Origin: Exaiptasia diaphana
Taxonomy: Eukaryota > Cnidaria > Anthozoa > Actiniaria > Aiptasiidae
Assembly (NCBI RefSeq): GCF_001417965.1
Contig: NW_018385098.1
Span: 1,112,384 to 1,176,383 of the forward strand
Length of the DNA stretch: 64,000 bases
Direction: 5' to 3'
In this document: positions 1-63,989 of the stretch, in pieces
How the letters are laid out: every line of letters starts with the position of its first letter
Position numbering within the stretch: position 1 is the first letter of the stretch
Made by a program: the position numbers and the translations under genes
The notes under the pieces: generated by a model
What the model saw: only the letters and a program-made list of their open reading frames with translations
Told to the model about the DNA's origin: nothing
Database searches by the model: none

Positions 1-827
1 AGATGAAACAAGAGCTAAGAAAAATGATTTGCAATGGTTCCTCCTAAGATACATTGGACTTGAAACGTCGCTTCAACGACCTTCTGAAGTCTTCGTGACT
101 GTCGGTCATTGCTTCGCATGCAATGGAGAACCCGCGTAGAACACAGAACAATTATTTCTATCAGGGAGGGGAGTCTCGTGGTATTAAAGAAAAAGTTATT
201 TGTTTTTCATTTTTAAGATAAAATTCTCTTTCTATAACGATAAATATTTGATTGACATTTAAAAGCTATTTTATAAAGATTTTCAATTTCTCTTTGCGAT
301 TTATCTTCGATTTTTCGGATAGAATAAAATGACAGGCAGTCTACTCCACTGGGTCGAGTTTTGCTGTGCATATTCCTCCCGTCGGAGGGTTATGTTTACA
401 ACATAAGCTTGTCAGCTTTGCGCTGATTGGCTACTCGCATTTTTTCAAATCACTCAGTATGCATTAGCATAAATTACCGAAATTGTGTATGCTTTCGTGA
501 AAGTTCTATTTACGTAAGCTTAGCGTTAAACTAGTGAGGCGAGCATTGTGTAGATGGATATAGATCATGTTTCCACGCAACATGGCAATATAAAGCCTGT
601 GATTGGCTGAATCCAAATCGATGACGTAAGTACATACATCAAATCAAAGGAATAACCATTACATAAGAATAAATTACCGAAGGTTTTGAAGGTATATAGT
701 AACACTGCGACTCGGGGCAATCCGGGAATTTCTGTCCATTGTCTGTGAATAAATAACCGCCCACTTTCTTTAGATTTAAGACCATGTTCAAGTGTTCGCA
801 GATCCGCACTAGTTACATTATGTAAGG
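1..827 (+). promoter_or_regulatory. 5' flank of the RHIM/pseudocaspase gene
   Basis: No open reading frame with recognisable similarity was found here. The stretch holds CCAAT-type motifs (CTGATTGGCT near 424, GTGATTGGCT near 600), a palindromic CTTTCGTGAAAG at about 491-502 and a TATA-like GGTATATAGTA near 690. The 13-mer ATAAATTACCGAA occurs twice exactly 200 bp apart, at 469 and 669. An in-frame stop at 810-812 closes the frame upstream of the ATG at 828. The promoter role is inferred only from position. Confidence 0.35.
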
Positions 828-1984
828 ATGGGAAGCCTTAACATTTATGGTGGACAAACAATAATCGTAGGAGATGGCAATACTATTCAATTTCTTGATA
901 GATATTCCTCCTTACAAGGTAAATGAATATAACAGGAGCAACAATACCGTCTTCCTTCTTGTTTCTACTACAGTTTTGCACGCGCTCATACCCTATCCAG
1001 CCGCGACATGATACTATAAGTAAATCTAACGCTAATGAAGATGTGAAATTTGTTGTTTATTTCTTATTACAATTGAGGTGCGATATTTATAGCAGAGCCC
1101 TGTTTCAGGGTGTCTGGATGCGGGGTAAATAAAAATACAGAATATAAAGAAAAATTGCGTATTTCCACTAAATTTTGATTTTTTTTTCAGTCGAGGCTCA
1201 CAACACGAATGATCATGTTGGCATCTCTGTTGAAGAGAGCCAAGAATCAGATCTTATTGGAAATATCACCAATGGTTATGTGCTTATCATCAACAATTAC
1301 TCCTCTCTCTACCCTTCTGACTTTACCAGCGAAAACTTCGAGGTACTTCAAGACTTTGGCCTCGATCCAGTGATTCTACGCAAAGATCTGAACACAGCAG
1401 AAATGTTTGAAGTCCTCAAAGAAACATCGGAGAAAGATTTCACCGAGTTTGACTGCTTTATTTGTGCAATCGCCGCAAGTTACAGTACATCAGACGAAAT
1501 GATTATGGGACATGAAGACGAGGAAGCCATCCATATTGATATTTTGCTTGATTTTTTCCTGACGGTCCCCTCTCTAAAGAACAAACCCAAAGTGTTTTTG
1601 ATTCAAACAATTCAAGTCCCTCGACCTAACGACAGCATCTGCACACCTTCTGCAACTAACGCGGGCGCAAAAGGAACAAGTGTTGAAATTCAAACAGCCA
1701 AGAAGCCGCAAAGAAACCTTCTTTCACCTGCAGATTCAAACCTTTTGGTTTGTCAAGCCACTCTTCCTTTGTGCGAGCCAGTGGCGACAGAAAACTCTTT
1801 CTGTGGGTTGTTAAAGTTTGTCGTGGATGTGTTTCAAAGCCATGCTGACAAAGAACACATCATGGATATGATAACTAGAGTCAACAGTCAAATCACCCAA
1901 TCAGCTTCAAACATTAAAGTTCGGTGTTTACACGCCTGCAGCAAGAAGTTTTATTTTCTTCGTCCATGGCAGCACAGGAAATAA
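828..1984 (+). CDS. RHIM-like motif fused to a catalytically dead caspase domain
   Basis: Two exons, 828-918 and 1191-1984, joined in phase 1 (GTAAATG donor, T-rich CAG acceptor), give 294 aa. Exon 1 encodes about 30 residues; residues 5-22 (NIYGGQTIIVGDGNTIQF) resemble a RHIM, the amyloid motif with core I/V-Q-I/V-G-x-x-N-x-I/L/M, with Ile in place of the core Gln. Exon 2 is a caspase p20/p10 fold: GYVLIINN at 59-66, DCFICAI at 118-124, KPKVFLIQ at 162-169 and CQATLP at 218-223. The active-site SHG is replaced around 125-128 (AASY) and QACRG reads QTIQV, so both catalytic His and Cys are absent. In known families dead caspases (cFLIP) regulate active partners and RHIMs assemble amyloid signalosomes; a role in death or immune signalling is inferred. 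The start has an in-frame stop at 810-812. An AATAAA lies at 2491. The caspase fold is near certain; the RHIM reading is less so. Confidence 0.8.
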
Positions 1985-5600: not shown

Positions 5601-8600
5601 GTCATTCGCGGTACAGAAACACTAAATGATGTCGAGCGTTTTTCGAAAGGGCATTTGTAGGGATACCGTAGCCTGTGTACATCCGTTTCTCACCCCTCAA
5701 AAAATCGGGGAGAGATTTTTTGAGGGGTGAGAAACGGATGTACACAGGCTAGGATACCGTGAATTTATCGTGAATTTAAGCGAATTATATACGGCTCTGC
5801 AATCACAAAAGACTATCTAAGGAATCCCAACAGGGTTATACTGAGGAAAATGAAATGATTGGAAGTATTTCAAGCGAAGAACATGAAAGACTATCGACCT
5901 GTGTTTACGCGGAATGGCTCGTCAAACATGCTTACTTCTTTCACAATATTATGCTTAATGCTATAAAGTACATTGCTTGTTTTATTATTTTTCATTAAAA
6001 GAAATATTTTTGCTTTAGTCTGAGTAATATTAACGTTATTAGGGCTCAATATAATACAATTCTTCGATTACCANAATAACTATTGTCATTGACTTCTTCG
6101 TTTGCTGATTGTGATACCACAGGAAGCCCATGTAAACGATCGCTGATCGTCTAGTTATTATATATAATAATTATTACTTAGTTGTCTTAGAAGTTTGTTT
6201 CTCACAGAAAACAAAACAAAAAACCTGATTATTAGCTCTTATCGGTTTTTACACCATATGACTGATTCTTCAATTAATATTATTTAATAGCAAGAAAAGG
6301 ATATGGACTTGGAAGATGAAGAAGACAAAGTAGACATTGAGTATGTTACTGAAGACATGGAGCTTACAAATCCTTACTTCAGGACATTCTCTCAGATATT
6401 TGAGAAATTCAAGGTATTTCATGACAAGTACAGTAAATGGAGATTATTTTATTCTGAATTGATGAGCTAGAGTGGTCAATGGGTGTTATTCTGGACACTT
6501 GAACTGTTGGGTCATCTTAACTTAAATCTTCACTGTCAAAACAAGTGACCAAATATGTTGGTCTGCCTGTTTCAGTGGTTTTGACTTATTGGTTTAAACC
6601 TTGAAGTGTATTGAATTGTGAATACAATTTGAGGCATGAACTAACAACACTAACAACTAAAACCTTTCTCGTCATATCTTGTCATTTCTTGTTAGATTTC
6701 AGCCCCAGAAGAAACAGCAGACCAAAAGAAAGCTGATGAAAAGAAAGATGACCAGGTATAAGTGCTTTATTAATTATAATGATAAGACTGACTACTTGTT
6801 TTATTGTATAATTAGTTTTACAATCAATGTCATTGCTCTTCAATTTTCACCGATTTTTATTTTGTCTCTTTCCAGGCGGATCCTAAGAAGGTGGATCAGA
6901 GAGATCCTCTTGTGCTAGAAGACGATGAAGAAATTGAGGTATAACAGATATTATTTTGTATTATTAAAATTACAAAATGCATCCAAGCTGGTAATTCCAT
7001 TGTTTTCTTTCTTGCCGTACATTTTGACTTATTACATTGTTAATCTTGACCATACTACAAGTCCATATTGTAAACCTCTTTACAATATTTCTTTTCTCGT
7101 GACATCCGGTACATTTTATTATTTATTTCCATAAAGAAACCTCCAGACTCGGGTGAGCCCAAACTTTCTAAGAAAAAACTGAAGAAGATGAAGAGACTTT
7201 CAGTAGCACAGCTAAAATTAGTAAGTGACATTCAAGCTTTTATTATTTATTTGTTTACCTTGTTGTGTTCTTTTGCTTCAATTACTAGAATTCATCTTAT
7301 GAATTGCTTAATTCATTCATAAAATTCAATGTTTATCAACCCATTGAACTATGCAGTATCTCCTTTTGCCCGGGACCACTGTTAACCAGTATTCAATGCC
7401 GTTAAGTGCTTTTGTTACATTGAAAATGAGGTGACTTCAAATATCGATATGCAATCTGGATTCATCCATCAGTTTTAAGATCAAATCTTACAATATCTCC
7501 ATTCATAGAGTATAAAAGGATAATAGAGAGTACATTTTTGCCTAGATTACAACAAATTTTTATTTTCAAACATAAGCAAAAGCTTGTGAAGGATCCTGGC
7601 TGACCATCCATCCATCCTTTTATTCACTTTCATTTTATTATTTTTTTACAGTTGGTTGATAGGCCAGATCTTGTGGAAATGCATGATGTAAATGCACCTG
7701 ATCCAAAGTTCCTTATCTTCCTTAAGGTACTATACAATAATAATTATTATTACACATTTATTATAATAATTATTATAAATATGTTTGCACTCCTCGTAAT
7801 ATCTCATATTTCCTCTCATTCCTAATTGTCATTGTTGATATTATTCAGTGGCAGTCCCAATGAGAGGGAAGAGCATATCTTGCTGTAGTTGACATTACTC
7901 ATTCCTGCACTGTCTATACAAAACCTTGACTTTGCAGATTACAGTGTCAATACATTATCTAATTATTCATAAATATATTGATAGCACACTACACTGTATT
8001 ACTCTATATTTCATGTTTTTCATATTGTCTTTATGTTGTACAAATTATTGCAATTTTAATTGACTATTACCAATAGCGCTTTCTTTCATGAGTCAATAGA
8101 CATCACTCTAGTGTAATGGTGTATTAATTATTATCTTTTAATGAAGTACAAAGTTTTAGTGTCAAAAAGTGCTTTTTACTGAAGTATTTGTGTATTTTTT
8201 CAGTCTGTTAGGAATTCAGTTCCAGTACCAAGGCACTGGTGTTTTAAAAGAAAATATCTACAGGTAAGAGTTATATCATAAAGAATTTTATGCAGAGTTC
8301 ATGTATNTGATAAGTGTTCAAATCAAAATGTCCAATTTACAAGGTGCAAACCTTCAAAAAAAAAATTATTTTAAAACTGGGTTCTAAGTGTAGAATTTTC
8401 AAGTGGAGATAGCTCTTTTAAGTGCTGATTAGTCACCCATTTTTTGTCTACTGTTCTTATCCACTTAAAGTCCCTCTTTCTAAGTTGTTAATCTTAGGAA
8501 GTGGTGTAGAAAAGTGGGATAAAAATCAGGCTTTTCTACCTGTGAGAAGATAGTAAGTTCTTCTTACAGCTTACATCGCCTGAACATATAAAATACTAAA

Positions 8601-11600
8601 TTAAATATTTCTTACTGGTGAATATATAGTTTTATGTTATTATAGCGCATTCAGTAAAAGTGTGAAACATTAGTAATGCTATTTTGTATTTTATGCTAAT
8701 TTGTTTGTTTTATTTTGTTAAATAGCACTATTTTTTCACAATTTCAAGTAATTAGTGTTTCACCCTTTTACTGGAAGCACTCTACTTTGCAGTTCTTTGC
8801 AACTTCGCAACACTAATGAGATCAATATTCTGTAATATCATTTCAGGGTAAACGTGGTATTGTCAAGCCTCCTTATGAGCTTCCTGAGTTTATTAAGGTT
8901 TGTACCCTTTATTGTAGAGTTTCTATCAGAGCGCAGCCAATCGAAGATTAAAGATTTTGATATTATAGTCTTGTACTGATATAGCATTTTCAAATTCTTG
9001 TAGAAAACTGGAATCATGGAGATGAGAGAAGCCATGCAAGAGAAGGTATGGAATCACAATGTATCAAACTTCATTGTTGGCTGTATTAACAATGAAATGA
9101 TATTATGGAAAATACAGTAATTAGAAATACTTTGCTTGTGGCTTAGATATGTAATCATAAGTAAAAGTATTTGAAAAAATGTTTTTTTTTAATTAATAAT
9201 AAATTGTTTTATAGCTCATGTTTTTTGTTTTTGCCTCTGCTTATAGGAAGATCAAAAGGGTCTTAAAGCAAAAATGAGAGAAAAGGTAGTTATAATATTA
9301 TGTGAAGGTAGTTTGCTACCTTCTATTATTCGGTTGATAGCCTGCAGCTAGAGATGTAGCTGAGATGTAGCAACTTCAAAGTAATATTTTCTCCATGTAC
9401 TCTTCTTCAATTCTAGATTCGGCCCAAGATGGGGAAAATCAACATTGACTACAAGAAAATGCATGATGCTTTCTTCAAGTTAGTATCTTTTGAAAACTAA
9501 AATAAATCAGAACAGTTTTTAGTGATAATATAGCAATTAAAGTTGTTTAAATAGACTCATCAAATTGTGGTCAAGATGTAAGTGTACATGTATGTTATGC
9601 AACAAAAAGGCAAAGAAGAACATGCACAAAATAGTCAGAATAATAAAGTGTGATGTGTCTTATTAATTAAGTGCATTTCAATAACATTACACGTTTTTGG
9701 TAATTTTATTATATTATAACCATTTATTAGTTGAGAGTACTAATGCACTTGAGAGACTTTTACATTAAAAATGACTTACATTAGAACAGCATTTTTGTTT
9801 TGCTTTTGGTTATTTCCTTTTTACATAAAAAACTTTACAAGACGCAACCTTTACCTTTACATGTACTTGCAACAAGTCCAAACAATATTGGTTTTGATAT
9901 TAGCTTGTTTTCTATGAAATAAAGCATTGTAATTTTTTTCAGATGGCAAACCAAACCCAAACTAACTATACATGGGGATCTCTATTATGAAGTAAGTAGC
10001 ACCCATGATTCCTTGTTTGTAGGTTTTTTGAATGACTTTGTAAATGAACTAAGTTTATTATTCAGTCAGAAGTCTGTCTGTCTGTCCATCCATCTGTATT
10101 ATTTTTGTTCATACCTGACTTACACTGCTTTTGATTCATATGTTCCAACATCTTATTCCCTTGTTTTTCTTACAGGGAAAAGAGTTTGAGACAAAACTTA
10201 AAGAAAAAAAGCCTGGTGATCTGTCAGATGATTTGAAAGCAGCACTTGGTATGCCAACTGGACAGGTAATGATGGATCATGTGACACCTTGTTACACATA
10301 CAAAGGAATATTATTTACTTTATCGTGGATGTTTTGTGGATGTTCCCCATCAATAGCAGTTCTTTTGAATGGGTTCCTTTAGTTTGCAAGCCCTTTCATT
10401 GTAGGAGCGGACACTTGTAGGGAGCTGTTTTCAATAGGACTAAGTTTGGAGGGATATGTTTCAAAGGAATCCTTATGAATGCAGTATTTAATTTAGGGAC
10501 ATATTCAAAAGGGGACTTCTTTGGCTGGACTAATTTAAAGGGGTTTTTATGATTAAGAAATATAAAACGGCGCGCATGTCTCTGTCCTCTGATATAAACA
10601 CGGTGGGAGTTCGAAAAACACGAGAGAAGCAAGCTTAGGAACACGAGCGTAGTGAGTGTTTCTCTTGCTTCTAGAGTGTTTTTCAACTCCCACCATGTTT
10701 ATATCAGAAGACAGAGACACAAGCGGCCGTTTTATATTTCTTTTATAAAATTTTTCGAGCTAAAAGAAAATTTTGCCGGTAAGCCGTGTCTCTGTCCTCT
10801 GATATAAACACGGTCGTCAGCCAATCAGAGCGTGCGTTATATATCAAAAATTTTATAAAATGCAATATAGTATCATTCACTGTTAATTTTGTTTCCACGC
10901 AGGGAAGCCACACAGTCCCACCTCCCTGGTTAATAGCCATGCAGCGTTATGGCCCTCCACCCTCGTATCCAAACCTCAAAATACCTGGTTTAAATGCACC
11001 CATACCAGAAGGGGCATCATTTGGGTACCACGCTGGTGGGTGGGGTAAGCCACCTGTTGATGAAACAGGACGTCCACTATATGGAGACGTGTTTGGTGTT
11101 CTTTCACATGATATTCATCACGAGGAGGAAGAGGATGGTGTGCTAAGGAGATACTGGGGTGAGGTGGAATCAGAGGAAGAGTCTGAGGAAGAATCAGAGG
11201 TTTGTAGTGCACTATTTTGACAATAAGGTCAATGGCAGATCCAAGTGGGGGAGGGAGGGGCACATTTTGGTCTATTGTATTTGTATATTTACAGTATGTA
11301 AGTAGGACTTTTATTTGAATATGTATTTAAGCAGGACTCTACCAATAGGGGGTGCACTGCTCCCCCTGACGCTCAGCCTTAAGGTTACATTAATTATTGT
11401 AACATTTCCCTAACCTTGTTGTTCAAATTATTATTATTATATTTTTTTCAGGAGTCAGAAGAAGAGGAAGAAGATACAACGGGATTGATCACTCCTGCAG
11501 CAACGTGAGTAGAGCATGTTGTGAATTTAATAATAACTATAATAGATTTATTCTATTTCATTCATCTCACCCATGGAGGCATCTTTTTGGAGAAATCCTG

Positions 11601-21800: not shown

Positions 21801-24800
21801 CATAATACTTGTATTGAATTTTTAAATGTGGCTTTTATTAGATGGAAATAGTTAAAGGACTTGCATTAATTCATAAATAAGAAAGGACTTACTGTGTGCA
21901 CACCAGTCACAGTGTACGCATGACCTTTCACCAAACCCATTGCACCTTTTGCTTCAATCTCATTTGGTTTAGCCTACAAAAGGATAAAACGTGTGATCAT
22001 ATTATAAGCTATTTGAAAATAAGAAAACTTAGTACTCCTACAGTTCCAGTTTCCTTAGAACAACACAGTATGCAGTGGTTTGTTTAAGCCTGCAACCAAT
22101 ATTCTTTATTACAAAAAACCTCCACTACATAACAACGTGAACTTCTTCACCCTTTCCACTCTCTCAATAAGCCTAATGTACATTTGATATAATAAAATAA
22201 AATAAAAAATGAAGTTATGAACACAAACTTAGACCACAAGATAGTATAAGTGAAATTGCTTCATCCTTATATACACAGCTACTATTTACATAATGTCACG
22301 TGAACAATAGTGCCCAGTCCTTATGTCGCTAAGGAATTATTTCTCTCTCGCTCTCCACTTGCTACGCTTGTCCGTTACAAGGGAAATACATTTCTATCCT
22401 TTGGATATCAAAATCAACAAGTAAAAGCTAGAAATGGGGTGCACAAGAAACTGACTGTAAACCTTTAATACACACATCGTCAGACAGTGGGAACAGGTTT
22501 CTATAGTTACTTTGGTTAATGCACAAAGCATATCAACAATAATTTTAATATTCACTCACAGCAATAGAGCATCCCATCAAACTGCTTCTTGCCATGGCTT
22601 TCTGCATAATTGCAAACAGGTCTTCTGGTGGTTTTTTAAGGTCATATGACTCAGATAGACCACCAGTGAAATCCTCCAAAGCTTCCCCAGTCTGTCCACC
22701 TTTGAGAGCCTCATAACTTCCATGAACCCTAGATGAGCGATTAGATAACAAAATAATCACTATTATGGAAATTACAGGCTGAAAATCTCTCTTATTAGCA
22801 ATCAGTTATCATAATTCTCTTAAATAAATAAGTAATAAAAAGTTCCTCTTATTTCCTACCATAAATTCACACAAAATCAAGTGGCAATTCTATAATTATG
22901 TTTCAGTAATACTTATATAATAATGCTATTTGAATCAAATGCATATACAATGCCAGATATTCATCCTCTAAATATTTCACACACCCACAAATGCAGGCCA
23001 TAGTGCTTGTGATAAACTGGACAATCTAAATTACACTTAGCATCACAGATTTAAGTTTCATTTTTGACCTTTGGGCTGACATCTTTGTCCAAATTGTAAT
23101 GCTTGTGGCTCCTTATGATTCACACTTTCTCAGAACAGCCACCTACTTCCACATGTAGCAAAACTCTAGCATATTACATGTATGTACAATCTCTAAACTC
23201 ACTTAGCATAAGCTTTTTCCAGTAAAGACGACCAGAACTCATTCTTTTCAGCAGACTGCACAAACACAAGCTTTCCATTTCGAGAAGGTAGACGGTCATC
23301 AGTAATCACCTCCTTCCATTCCCCATACTGCCAAAAGTTAAACCTAACAGCTCCAGTGTAGTTAGGATCCTTATTATCAGCAACATAATCGGTAATGAGA
23401 ACCCTGTTAAGGAGCTTATCATGCTGGGTTAGAGCACCAATACCAGCAAGAAGCCAACAATCTCCCAGCATACCCTGCTTGATGTCCAGTCGGCTCGCTC
23501 CACCAATAATCAATTTTGGGTTGTCAACCAATTCCTAAAGATATAGTAAAATAATACAAAGATGAGTGAGCAAGTATACTTTTTCCTGCCATTTGCACGA
23601 GAGAATATCATTAAGTTTATCACCAAATCTAACATCTCAGGGTCAAGTGACTAAGTATTGGAATTTGAATTGTGTGCTGGTAAACATTTTGTTTCATGTG
23701 CAAGCATGTGAGGTTGTGAAGGCAATGTAAATGTTACAAAATTTAGGCCATTGCATCAATGTTGTTGACCACAGTGAGAGATAAGAGAAACAAGACTTTA
23801 TTTGCCAAATCAATGGGGTACATATTTCGAGTAGTCCAACTGTTTCCTTGGCATGAATCCAAAATAACAATGGAGCAATTTTGGAGTAAATCACTTTTGA
23901 AGTCTCAACCCACTTAGCCAGCATGCGACTCCATTAATCTTCTCCCTTTTCACAATTAAATAAAAAAGGTTGCCTCCTCCCCTCCCCTTCCCCCTCCATT
24001 AAACCTTCGCACACACCGCCATAGCGAGGCGCTGAGAGAGTAAAGCCTATTTCTAAATTTAATGATACAACTTGATTTCCTTGTCTGGGAATCAGACCAA
24101 GGGATGTAAACAAACAAATACTGTAGATTGATTTAACAAAATGACAAATCAACCTTTGTAAAAATGTCTATTTTCTAGATGGATACATAATTTTTCTATC
24201 TTTAAATTCAAAATTTTAGAGTTAAATACATGTAGGTTCAAGTGAAAATGAAAAAACAAGAGAATGGTTATAAATATCAGAATATTATTATGTTATTGTT
24301 CATTGATGGAAGATGCATTATTAACAAAAATAACACTATATTATAAATAATTAGTGAATATTAAAATAAGAACCAAAACATCTTACTTTCTTTTCAAAAT
24401 TCATTACATTTGTTTTAAAAAAATCGCATTATGACAAATAGTTGTATTACCGACTTTATTATAAGCAAAACAATTCTGTTTAATCTCAAAAGAGGAGTAA
24501 ACAATTTTTGGACAGCTTAGTAGAACATTGAATAAACTTTGGAGTTATGTAATATGCAGAGGTGATATTGTTTGCCAAAACGTTTGGCAGGATTCAAACT
24601 AACCCAACTAAACACTGCCAAAAAAGTTCAAGGTCTAGTGGATGCTGGTCATGCCACTCAACCATAACCTTGGGTTTTGTTTTTCTTATCGTTTTCGCTG
24701 TTGTTTTGTTGACAGTTTTGTTTGTTTGTTTTTTCTCCGCTTAGCACGGTGAAATATTGAATAATGATAAAAAATTTCTTGCTACAGACAAAGGTAGACG

Positions 24801-34676: not shown

Positions 34677-37600
34677 ATGACCAGTAGAGACATCGGGAGG
34701 GAGAGTAAATACGAGAGATTACGTCTCGAGTGTTTGCGCGATGGAAAGTTGTACGAAGATCCAGAATTTCCTGCAAATGTCAGCTCACTGTACGACAAGA
34801 ATCCTTTGCAAGTTAACATAGAATGGAAACGACCATCTGTAAGTCGTTGTTGTAACACTTATAAACTACTTATCCAACAATATACCCAACCACCCACCCA
34901 CCCACTCACCGAACCAGCCAACCAACCACCCAACCCCCTACTCACCGAACAAACCAACCAACTACACACTCGCAACTAACCACCCGCAACCAACCAAGCA
35001 CTTTTAAAAAGTCCTTCTTACTGTTGCAATGTTAGAATAAACAATATATCAATTTCAACTCACAGGAGATAAGTCGCAATCCAAAGTTTTTCTCTGACGG
35101 TGCCAGCCGTCATGATGTCGCTCAAGGACGATTAGAAAACTGTTGGTTTTTGTCTTCGCTGTCAACTCTCGCAGAACACAAGTCACTTCTTTACCGTGTT
35201 TGTCCTCCTCACCAGACGTTTCGCAAAGGTCATTATTGTGGGTTGTTTGTATTTCGATTCTGGCGGTTTGGTGAGTGGAATGAGGTGATCATTGATGATC
35301 GAATACCGACTTTTAACGGACGACCGTACTTCACTAGATCTACAGACCCCAATGAATTCTGGTGCTGTTTGGTGGAGAAAGCCTACTGCAAGTAAGAGGG
35401 AAACATGTATATAGAACCCCCCTGAATCCAGCGCATAAAATCTATCCTGGGGGTAAAAGTACCGGGGGATGCTCGTCGGATCTCAAGGGTAAAAATTCGT
35501 GATTGGGAAGGTAAAAAGTTGTAGTTTCTGGATATTTGCATTTTCTGCAGTTTCTCAGGGTGAACAGAAAGGGCGCATCGATATTGATTTTCCTCTGCGT
35601 TTTTATCATTGGAATTACCGATTTAATTTAACAATATTTGTTGTGCAATCTCGTAGTGGTTAAAAATCAGTCAGCCACGCCCTTTTTTCAAGATTTCCGA
35701 GATCTTTTAGGGGTCTTTTTGAATATTACTGACGAGCATCCCCGGTACTTTTACCCCGGAGTCCCCCCAGGATTAAAATCAACTCTTCGTTCAATTGAAG
35801 GACAAAGGAAAGTCGTTGGAAGGGTGGATAAAGTTATCTAACACGTACATTACGGTTATATAGATTTTATCTGCTGGTTGAGGATTTATCCGGTATATAG
35901 CCCTATTCACACTTCGTACCATAGGTCCCAGAATGGGACCACTTACAAATAAAGGTTAAAACGTGTGACTTAGAGGAGATGGAGTCACCTGATCACACCT
36001 GGTACAAATCGTCATTTATACATGTATTCTTCCTGTAACATAGAGATAACTGTAATAGAAAATTACACATATATTTTTAATTCTCCTTTCTTAGGTTATA
36101 TAGGTCTTACGAAGCCTTGAATTACGGTTTACAAAGTGAGGGACTACAAGACTTTACTGGGGGAGTGGTAGAGAGGATTAAAATGTCCAGTGCTCCATAT
36201 AACTTATTAGGACTACTAAAAACCAGCATGGAACGAAACTCATTGATAGGAACATGTGTAGTGGTGAGTAGAACACTAGATTATAATGTAGAAACTACAG
36301 GGCTATGGTCCATAAGCATTCCTTTCCGAGCCATGTTTGTGTTTGAAAATGAAATACATCGTAACATAAGCAAACACTTCCTCTTTATTATCAATGATTA
36401 CTCTAAATAAATGAAAAACATGATCTATCAAAGAAGTCCGACCTGTACTTGTCACATTTGCAAAACTGTGGAAGAGAAAACGATGGGAAAAAAGAGCTAG
36501 TGAATGAATTTAATGATTGTCTGATGTATAAGTTCTTCTAGTGTTGTTGTTTTTGTTGTTAAGTTATTGTTGTTGTTGCTATTGCTAACGCTTCAATGCC
36601 TATTCCAGCCCAAGGGTAACGAACAGAGTCTACACTTACCAAACGGACTTATTTGCGGGCATTCTTATTCCATAACAGCATTAAGAAAGGTAAACTCTCA
36701 TGTATGAGCCTTTCAATTCAAATATAGCAGATGTATAGTATGCATCAGAGTTGCAATTTCATAGTCATGAAGTTTAGTACGTTAGAAATAGTCATATTTA
36801 GCATTGTCCTAGCTATACTACGCCCTTGTTCAAACACGAGAACCGTAATGTTTGCGATCAAAGAAATGATGGTCCGTGCTGCGGTGAATAAACGTGTGTA
36901 ATCAGTTATAATGTTTGATCAGCGAATCAAAACAACAATTGGATGGACAACTACTGGATCGCCACTGGATAAATTCAACGTGAAAGCTGGTTAATTAATT
37001 CATGGTAGTAATTTTGCTTGTTTTACGTTATTATTTTGTTGTTTACTATTGAACTAGGTGGAGCTGCGATATCTTCCTGACCGACCAATCAAGCATTTAA
37101 TTAGACTGAGAAACCCATGGGGGGAAGGAGCTGAATGGAGAGGAGCCTGGAGCGACAAGTAGGTCTTTTTTGTGACGTCATTACTGAATCGAGTATTATG
37201 GTATAGTTAATTTACTGACCCTTATATTTCACAGCTCTAAAGAATGGAAAATGCTATCAGAGCGACAAAAGTACGAATTAGATTTAACTCATGAAAAGGA
37301 TGGGGAATTTTGGTAAGAATTGACCATCACAAATCAACTACAACAAAAATTCACAAATTTGACCCAGTTTCTACACTCCAGAATCCAATGAAATAAATCA
37401 ATCAAAATAACTGACCATCCCTACTTTGTCTTTCTGCAGGATGGACTTTGACGATTTTATAACAAATTTATCCCTGATAGAAATTTGTATGCTAACGCCC
37501 GATAGCGCTACAGATAGCCACAAGAAAGTTTGGGAGCAAGGAATAATAACAGGGCGGTGGCAACCTTGGGTAAACGCTGGAGGATGTCGTAACTTTATTA

Positions 37601-40600
37601 AAACATTTCATCGAAACCCACAAATACGGTACTTCAAACTAATTGAAATGCTATAAAATACAGTTCAGTATGCTCAGTTTAGTTAGTTTTATTTGTTAAG
37701 AAACACGAATAACGTAGCAGCTCCTTCGGGATTCCTTTGTAACGGTCATCTTGGACGCTGGTCAGCGGCTTACCTGGCTCCTAGAAATAGACAGGAAGCC
37801 CATGACTCTTAGCGATACCTATATGTAGAAGACCACCGGTGATAGTAATGTTTGTCTTGCTTTTCGGACACTCTCTACCTTCACCTTCTCTGTTTGATTC
37901 TCTAATATAAAAACGTTCGGAGGCCAATCAGAACATCACAATCTTCAGCCAATCAGAGCGCACCTTACATCTCAAACATGTTTATGTAAAAACAGATGTA
38001 GATACTATATTCAGCCAATCAAAAAGCTCTTTTTGTATTTTATAAAACAGAGTAAAGCTATCAGACCCAGACGAAGATGATGAAAACAACTACTGTTCCA
38101 TGGTTATTAACCTTATGAGAAAAGACAAGAAAAGACTACGTAGAGATGCACCCATTGGCTTTGCAGTGTATAAAGTACGATAGAAACATTTAAGTTCTTT
38201 TGTTCAGATTTAAACAGCCGGTTGGTTGGTTGTTGGGCTGGTTGGTTGCTTGGTTGATTGGTTGCATGATTGGTTGCTTGGTTACTTGGTTGCTTGGTTA
38301 CTTGGTTGCTTGGTTGCATGATTGCATGATTGCATGATTGGTTGCTTGGTTACGTGATTGAATGATTGCTTGGCAGCTTGATTACTTGGTTGCTTGGTTT
38401 CATGATTGATTGCTTGGTTACTTGACTGCTTGGTTGAATGATTGCTTGGCAGCTTGGTTACTTGGTTGCTTGGTTTCATGATTGGTTGCTTGGTTACTTG
38501 ACTGCTTGCCTGAATGATTGCCTGGCAGCTTGGTTACTTGGTTGGGTGGTTGCATGATTGCTTGGTTGGTTGCATGATTGCTTGGTTGGTTGCATGATTG
38601 CTTGGTTGGTTGCATGATTGCTTGGTTGAATGGTTGTTTGCTTGGTTGTTTGCATTGTTGGTTGACTGAACGGTTGGTTGGTTGCTTGCTTGCTTGTTTG
38701 CATGATTGGTTGGTTAGTTGCTTGATCAGCTGGTTGCTGGATTTCAGTACATGATATTTTATGTCTAAGTTTTTTATGACTTTGCTCTTAACCAGGTACC
38801 AAACGGTCTTGGTAAAAACGAGCGATTAACGCGGCAGTTCTTCGAGAATAATCATGCTGTTGCTAAAACCAACATGTTTACAAAAGAAAGAGAGATAACA
38901 CTTCGCTGCACCCTTCCACCTGGAGATTACGCCATTATTCCTTCAACATACGAGGCTAACACAAAAGCTGATTTCATACTACGAATATTTTCAGAGAAAT
39001 TCCATGAAACAAGGTAACACAGTGTCATATATAACTCTATACAATGATGACATGACGAAAAGTGAATTTCTTGGCAGTTCGCTGTGTAGACTTAGAGCTA
39101 TTAGAGTAAATCCATCATACAGTCACGGCAAATAGTTGAATCTCTCGAAAGCGGACACCCTGGAAAACGGAAAAATCTTCCTTCCTATGAGATAGTGTGA
39201 ATACAGTGTTTGTATGGATGAAATAAAAAGATTAAAAAAATGGGATTTGTGGAATCTGTCCATAACCAATGCTATCTGCTTGTAACAACGCTATCTTTAT
39301 ACGAGCGCGTGTACATTCGACTTTAATACCTCTGAATTACAGGATTACGCTTAATGGAATTTTTTTATTGCTTGTGCAAAATGTATTTGCTGGACAGCCA
39401 TTAAACTCGTGTTGCTTGCATTGCTTATAATCTAATTTCTCTTTGTTTTCTAGAGAGATTGACGAGAGAACAGAACTTCTTGGCCCTCCCAGAGTATGTA
39501 GTCTGCATCTATCTTTAACTCTTCCAATTAGTTCCCAGCGCCATCTTGGAAAAGTAGCCCAGCTTGGGCTATCTATTACTGCAGGCTCAGGCTGTGACTC
39601 ATTTTGATGCAGCAAAGACTTGATTACCTTTCAAGATGGCGCTTGAAGCTGTTAAATGGAGTCTACGACATCTGTTCAAAATCTCATAATCACAGTAATT
39701 CCCCTTAATAACACATAATTAATGCCATTTACACATTAATTCAATCTAATAATATTTGCCAAGAATACATAACATTATTATTTGTTTGAGTAAAAGGATG
39801 CTTTATTGCAGCCAAAATTACCAAACTTCGACAGACAAAGATTCGATAAAACATACAAAAAGTTTTTCCACGACAATACAGGCGAGGTAAGCTTCAACTA
39901 TTACTTATTTCATGAGTGAAGGTGACAACACTGCCTACAAGCAACAACACTGAACAACGACCACCACAGCATGTACAACGACAACAACAACAACCATTAC
40001 AGCATGTACAACGACAACAACAACTATCACAGCATGTACAACGACAACAACAACAACCATCACAGCATGTACAGTGAAAACGACAACAACCATCACAACA
40101 TGTACAACGACAACAACAACAACTACCATCACAGCATGTACAACGACAACAACAACAACAACCATCACAGCATGTACAACGACAACAACAACAGCAACAA
40201 CCATGATCACAGCATGTACAACGACAACAACAGCAACAACCATCACAGCATGTACAACGACAACAACAACAACAACCATCACAGATGTACAGTAAAAACG
40301 ACAACAACGACCATCACAGCACGTACAACGACAACAGCAACAACTATCGCAGCTTGTACTGACGATGACAACAACAACTACCATCACAGCATGTACAACT
40401 ACAACAACAGCAATAAGAATTAGCAATTAAGAACAAAAGCACTTCGATATCGGAGATGCATGGGAGACTGAGAACTAAGCTTTGATAAACAAAGCAATAC
40501 GGGAAGCAACATCAACAATACATTTCACTTTTATTCTAGGATGCAACTGCTGACCAGCACGACCTGCAGCATCTTCTCAACGAGGCATTCGGGCATGGTA

Positions 40601-55332: not shown

Positions 55333-63989
<8,657 letters not shown>

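Follow-up and report, generated by a model that had tools for sequence, protein, structure and literature searches.

A predicted sea anemone pseudocaspase with a RHIM-like N-terminal peptide, a possible amyloid-type assembly tag

The window analysed here is a whole stretch of 64,000 nucleotides from Exaiptasia diaphana (assembly GCF_001417965.1, contig NW_018385098.1, positions 1,112,384 to 1,176,383 of the forward strand). Close to its left end lies a predicted two-exon gene, in which a short peptide precedes a caspase-like fold. The coordinates of this gene and of the other annotated features are collected in Table 1. The neighbouring genes, namely a SAP-domain gene, calpains and histones, fit an animal genome. 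The first of them runs from position 2664 onward, with the SAP domain at its start, and the sequence PKLTIHGDLYYE, presumably SF3B2-like, is read in a later exon near 9950. Two calpain gene regions, one per strand, were identified by Pfam between 19000 and 39100, and a histone cluster at 58000-63200 comprises a linker histone H1 (Pfam) and core histones recognised by eye. Some non-coding features were also observed along the window. A hairpin at 5664-5756, downstream of an N-containing stretch, has 43-nt inverted arms of 95% complementarity around a 7-nt loop, and is perhaps a mobile element remnant or an assembly feature. The segment 21505-21578 gives an Rfam tRNA match of 42.9 bits where ARAGORN reports none, and is possibly a tRNA-derived repeat. 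A long simple-sequence tract at 39897-40426 gives rise, on either strand, to spurious frames rich in Asn/Thr or in Cys.

Table 1. Features annotated in the window, in order of position.
Feature	Position	Strand	Details
TATA-like box TATATAG	693-699	+	about 30 nt 5' of a plausible start site near 720-725; predicted
Upstream ORF	784-825	+	13 codons; final ATG followed at once by TAA (820-825); overlaps no coding exon
Coding exon 1	828-918	+	encodes MGSLNIYGGQTIIVGDGNTIQFLDRYSSLQ; 30 codons + 1 base (phase 1)
RHIM-like 18-residue motif NIYGGQTIIVGDGNTIQF	840-893	+	residues 5-22; top RHIM-profile score in the window
Intron 1	919-1190	+	272 nt, GT...TTTTTTTTCAG; splicing predicted
Coding exon 2, including stop	1191-1984	+	linker (residues 31-58) and caspase-fold domain
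Pseudocaspase domain	1274-1981	+	residues 59-294; p20-like and p10-like halves; Pfam, PDB matches, alignment
Catalytic His position	1478-1483	+	Ser127-Tyr128; His in neither alignment choice
Catalytic Cys position	1610-1612	+	Ile171; QACxG replaced by QTIQV (alignments)
Candidate polyadenylation signals AATAAA	2491-2550	+	at 2491, 2527 and 2545; sequence
Peptidase_C2	23202-23534	-	Pfam
Peptidase_C2	35036-35392	+	Pfam
Calpain_III	38769-39014		Pfam
Histone 3' stem-loop	61059-61105		within the 58000-63200 histone cluster

The earliest in-frame methionine of exon 2, M102 (1403-1405), lies within the caspase fold. Since no other Met precedes this residue, the start codon must come from an upstream exon. 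All mini-exons running from an ATG to a GT upstream of 1190, and able to join exon 2 in phase, were enumerated, and their donors were scored with a generic animal matrix. A single strong candidate emerged, exon 1, with a donor score of 5.3 as compared with 2.1 for the runner-up among all upstream candidates. Its donor at 918 (AAG/GTAAAT) ranks in the top 0.3% by score among the 3,370 GTs of the whole window, the acceptor at 1190/1191 reads TTTTTTTTCAG/TC, and the ATG at 828 stands in a strong context, with A at -3 and G at +4. The phase-1 junction creates V31 and an uninterrupted protein of 294 residues, exon 2 remaining open for 264 codons up to the TAA at 1982-1984. Open reading frames, donor rank and in-phase enumeration all agree with the proposal of the earlier note on this DNA that an exon with a clean donor joins a caspase-fold exon in phase.

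The TATA-like box and the AATAAA signals bracket what is predicted to be a compact two-exon gene, which would be spliced in vivo as modelled. The start-stop at the end of the upstream ORF could possibly act as a translational brake. The only GGGAATTTC of the window is found at 724-732, just 3' of the TATA-like box, and corresponds to an exact kappa-B site minus one 3' base. The gene model could be wrong: the true first exon may be located elsewhere, for instance to the left of the window, or the locus may be a caspase copy in decay. Just 827 bases are indeed visible upstream of exon 1, splicing is predicted, and GC3 differs between exon 1 (0.23) and exon 2 (0.43), a weak sign for 30 codons. 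Such an error looks quite improbable when set against the donor, the start context, the TATA-like box, the unique in-phase exon and the intact frame; the uninterrupted stretch of 264 codons is probably not that of a decaying copy.

The caspase fold is recognised by the Pfam profile Peptidase_C14 (PF00656) over residues 81-281 (E=8.1e-15, 55.6 bits for a cut-off of 21.4, profile positions 31-229 of 233). This is the sole Pfam domain found in the 294-residue protein, in which no death effector domain was detected, and the NCBIfam search gave no match. Caspases of the PDB are matched by sequence at 7e-8 or weaker, caspase-7 and caspase-8 being the best (about 1e-7). For residue-level comparison, the protein was aligned with caspase-3 and caspase-8 reference sequences that were checked at full length against PDB entries. 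The column of the catalytic His corresponds to Ser127 in the MAFFT alignment and to Tyr128 in the phmmer alignment, and no His at all is present in residues 118-137. When aligned with caspase-3 and caspase-8, the protein also lacks, past NNYS68, the loop that follows the first strand and bears the S1-pocket Arg. None of the three hallmarks of an active caspase, the Cys in QACxG, the His in SHG and the S1 Arg, is found. The retained elements of the fold are the core strand GYVLIINN, PSLKNKPKVFLIQ, the TRVN helix and the C-terminal strand KKFYFL (KELYFY in caspase-3), the latter being the strand of the caspase dimer interface. Judging from these alignments, exon 2 encodes a pseudocaspase, and its reading frame is intact. 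The caspase fold devoid of catalysis that had been proposed earlier is therefore confirmed, by the Peptidase_C14 match on the one hand, and by the Cys-to-Ile171 replacement, the missing His and the deleted S1-Arg loop on the other. A further caspase copy was not found within the 64-kb window. The AlphaFold2 prediction from the single sequence reached a pLDDT of 35 and was unusable.

The motif encoded by exon 1, NIYGGQTIIVGDGNTIQF, aligns without gaps with the human RIPK3 RHIM, NIYNCSGVQVGDNNYLTM, with identity at 7 of the 18 positions (N, I, Y, V, G, D, N), so that the resemblance to RIPK3 noticed initially holds. A RHIM profile was built with BLOSUM62 from the human RIPK3 and two RIPK1 RHIM sequences of the PDB. 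The exon 1 motif scores 27.7, the highest value among the 44,305 stop-free 18-mers in the six frames of the window, and it also ranks first among 667 ATG-led peptides, 5.3 SD over the mean. The same score is reached by 5 in 10^6 random peptides, a rate to be read with the fact that the RHIM comparison was chosen after the peptide was seen. About 0.2 equal matches are therefore expected by chance per window, and about 6e-5 for a single start peptide (13 positions at 5e-6). On a sliding aggregation scale, aggregation-prone peaks are observed at SLNIY, TIIVG and TIQFL, separated by GG and GDGN, which reproduces the three-strand spacing of RIPK3. Strands are also predicted by AlphaFold2 at residues 2-6, 10-15 and 20-23 of exon 1, at low confidence (pLDDT about 41). 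As far as the sequence can tell, the RHIM likeness of this peptide is notable, yet short of decisive.

A rather plain explanation has to be weighed at this point, namely an ordinary short-prodomain pseudocaspase, in which exon 1 would have no role beyond initiating translation and adding a disordered prodomain, the RHIM likeness would be fortuitous, and the protein would dimerise with active caspases with no amyloid step. Short prodomains are common among coral caspases (PMC7586219), and the expected number of chance matches per window, the missing core Gln and the lack of a Pfam RHIM match go in the same direction. However, the match is located at the N-terminus of the one identified cell-death gene of the window, where the start-peptide expectation is far lower, and its strand-turn spacing agrees with RIPK3. 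This explanation, although we hold it somewhat less probable than an even chance, ranks close behind the amyloid-tag reading developed below and is almost as likely.

Membership of the RHIM family is a more stringent question. RHIMs are defined by the core tetrad (V/I)Q(V/I/L/C)G (PMC9182532). The exon 1 tetrad reads I-I-V-G and fits at three of the four positions; the core Gln is replaced by Ile, as had been pointed out earlier, and the preceding Gly is a Thr. The Pfam RHIM family (PF12721) is matched neither by the full protein nor by exon 1 at E up to 10, the gathering cut-off being 20 bits and the RIPK3 RHIM, used as a positive control, scoring 38 bits. Introducing the Gln in silico in place of Ile in the exon 1 core yields 15.2 bits, under the cut-off, whereas RIPK3 with the converse replacement still scores 25 bits. 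The shortfall is thus spread over the flanks, beyond the Gln alone. With no Pfam match and no core Gln, the peptide fails as a RHIM family member. This failure weakens the RHIM claim, and the exon 1 peptide may still assemble in a RHIM-like manner. Of the RHIM assignment in the earlier note, what stands is the ungapped alignment with RIPK3 at 7 of 18 identities, and what is missing is a Pfam match, the full tetrad and the preceding Gly; the profile search it had suggested for exon 1, against RHIM and amyloid-motif models, came out empty at E up to 10.

The peptide could also be an amyloid signalling motif in its own right, PP-like or beta-solenoid in kind and with no RHIM descent, which would template a partner such as an NLR. 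Its strand-turn-strand organisation, its Gly/Asn turns, its N-terminal position and the low-confidence strands mentioned above are compatible with this proposal, amyloid signalling motifs being widely varied (PMC12261475). It is nevertheless an unlikely one: exon 1 matches none of the Pfam amyloid-motif families, the fungal PP core pattern NxGxQxGxN (PMC9815663) is broken by the lack of the central Gln and of the Gly preceding it, and no partner motif is present in the window. Against the PDB, exon 1 alone gave just two insignificant matches, with E values of 1.7 and 2.2, both to a component of a bacterial haemagglutinin, and these were put down to chance.

Relatives and partners were searched more widely. 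No relative was found at the protein level in viral contigs or phage records, and no relative carrying this pair of exons turned up in the prokaryotic, viral and plasmid collections covered. At the DNA level, the motif pattern occurs in seven frames of bacterial or archaeal genomes, and a looser form in one frame of a viral contig, the stricter pattern being absent from the viral contigs. The seven bacterial occurrences look like chance, as they fall within unrelated stop-to-stop frames and away from protein starts; the viral frame has a stop codon within the motif. A regular-expression search of the window for a partner carrying the same motif returned the exon 1 copy alone. Cnidarians yielded no RIPK1 homologue (PMC12119088), and caspase-8 alone was found in Nematostella among the human necroptosis components (PMC11251625). 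No known RHIM partner would thus be expected in a cnidarian.

Taking these data together, with c-FLIP-L as the pseudocaspase precedent (PMC11121540), the best reading is a c-FLIP-like pseudocaspase in which an amyloid-type assembly tag replaces a CARD or DED, a reading to which slightly less than an even chance is given. Exon 1 would provide a short RHIM-like beta-arch peptide at the place where initiator caspases carry a CARD or a DED. This peptide would self-stack, or stack onto a partner that has a like motif, by virtue of a presumed amyloid property, and would draw the 294-residue protein into an amyloid-type signalosome. The dead fold could then pair with an active caspase and tune it, upwards or downwards, in the way c-FLIP-L does with caspase-8; alternatively, it could take the place of the active caspase as a decoy.

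Descriptions of RHIM-type motifs cover mammals and the viruses that infect them, as well as flies, fungi and prokaryotes, and these motifs can occur in varied architectures (PMC7889193). A stronger version of the amyloid-tag reading, that of a metazoan pseudocaspase using a Gln-less RHIM-type amyloid motif instead of a death-fold domain, and tying amyloid templating to caspase control in animals where no RIPK1 homologues have been found, is doubtful, at about one chance in four by our estimate. If the peptide does assemble, one small protein, outside the RIPK kinases, would unite the two principles that regulate animal cell death, namely amyloid signalosomes and the pairing of caspases with pseudocaspases. 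This would suggest that RHIM-type signalling was wired to caspases in early animals prior to the RIPK necrosome or separately from it, in parallel with the bacterial amyloid motifs found on caspase-related CHAT proteases.

As regards novelty, no description of a metazoan caspase with a RHIM attached was found in the accessible portions of the open-licence literature. The earlier statement that no such architecture is known can be kept to this extent for metazoan caspases, and has to be tempered, since amyloid motifs are reported on the caspase-related CHAT protease domains of bacteria (PMC7889193). Short-prodomain and CARD caspases of corals share with the present protein the caspase fold and a short N-terminal extension; those characterised differ in being active and in having CARD or short prodomains, with no RHIM-like peptide mentioned in the part of the study available (PMC7586219). 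Fungal PP motifs and bacterial BASS3 motifs of NLR-linked effectors, CHAT protease effectors among them, offer another parallel, that of a short terminal amyloid motif on a cell-death effector. Their cores are Gln-centred, of the PP/RHIM type, and a neighbouring NLR gene is present, whereas here the effector is dead and the window holds no NLR partner. The likeness to the RIPK3 and RIPK1 RHIMs lies in the ungapped identity to RIPK3, the hydrophobic core and the Asn spacing. The core is VQVG in these kinases and IIVG here, where it lacks the preceding Gly and stays below Pfam detection, and the motif is inside the kinase in one case, at the extreme N-terminus of a pseudocaspase in the other. 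Finally, a close organisation is that of c-FLIP-L (CFLAR), in which a module for assembly at the N-terminus likewise precedes a catalytically dead fold of the caspase-8 type, this module consisting of two death effector domains in c-FLIP and of a RHIM-like peptide of 30 residues in the sea anemone protein.
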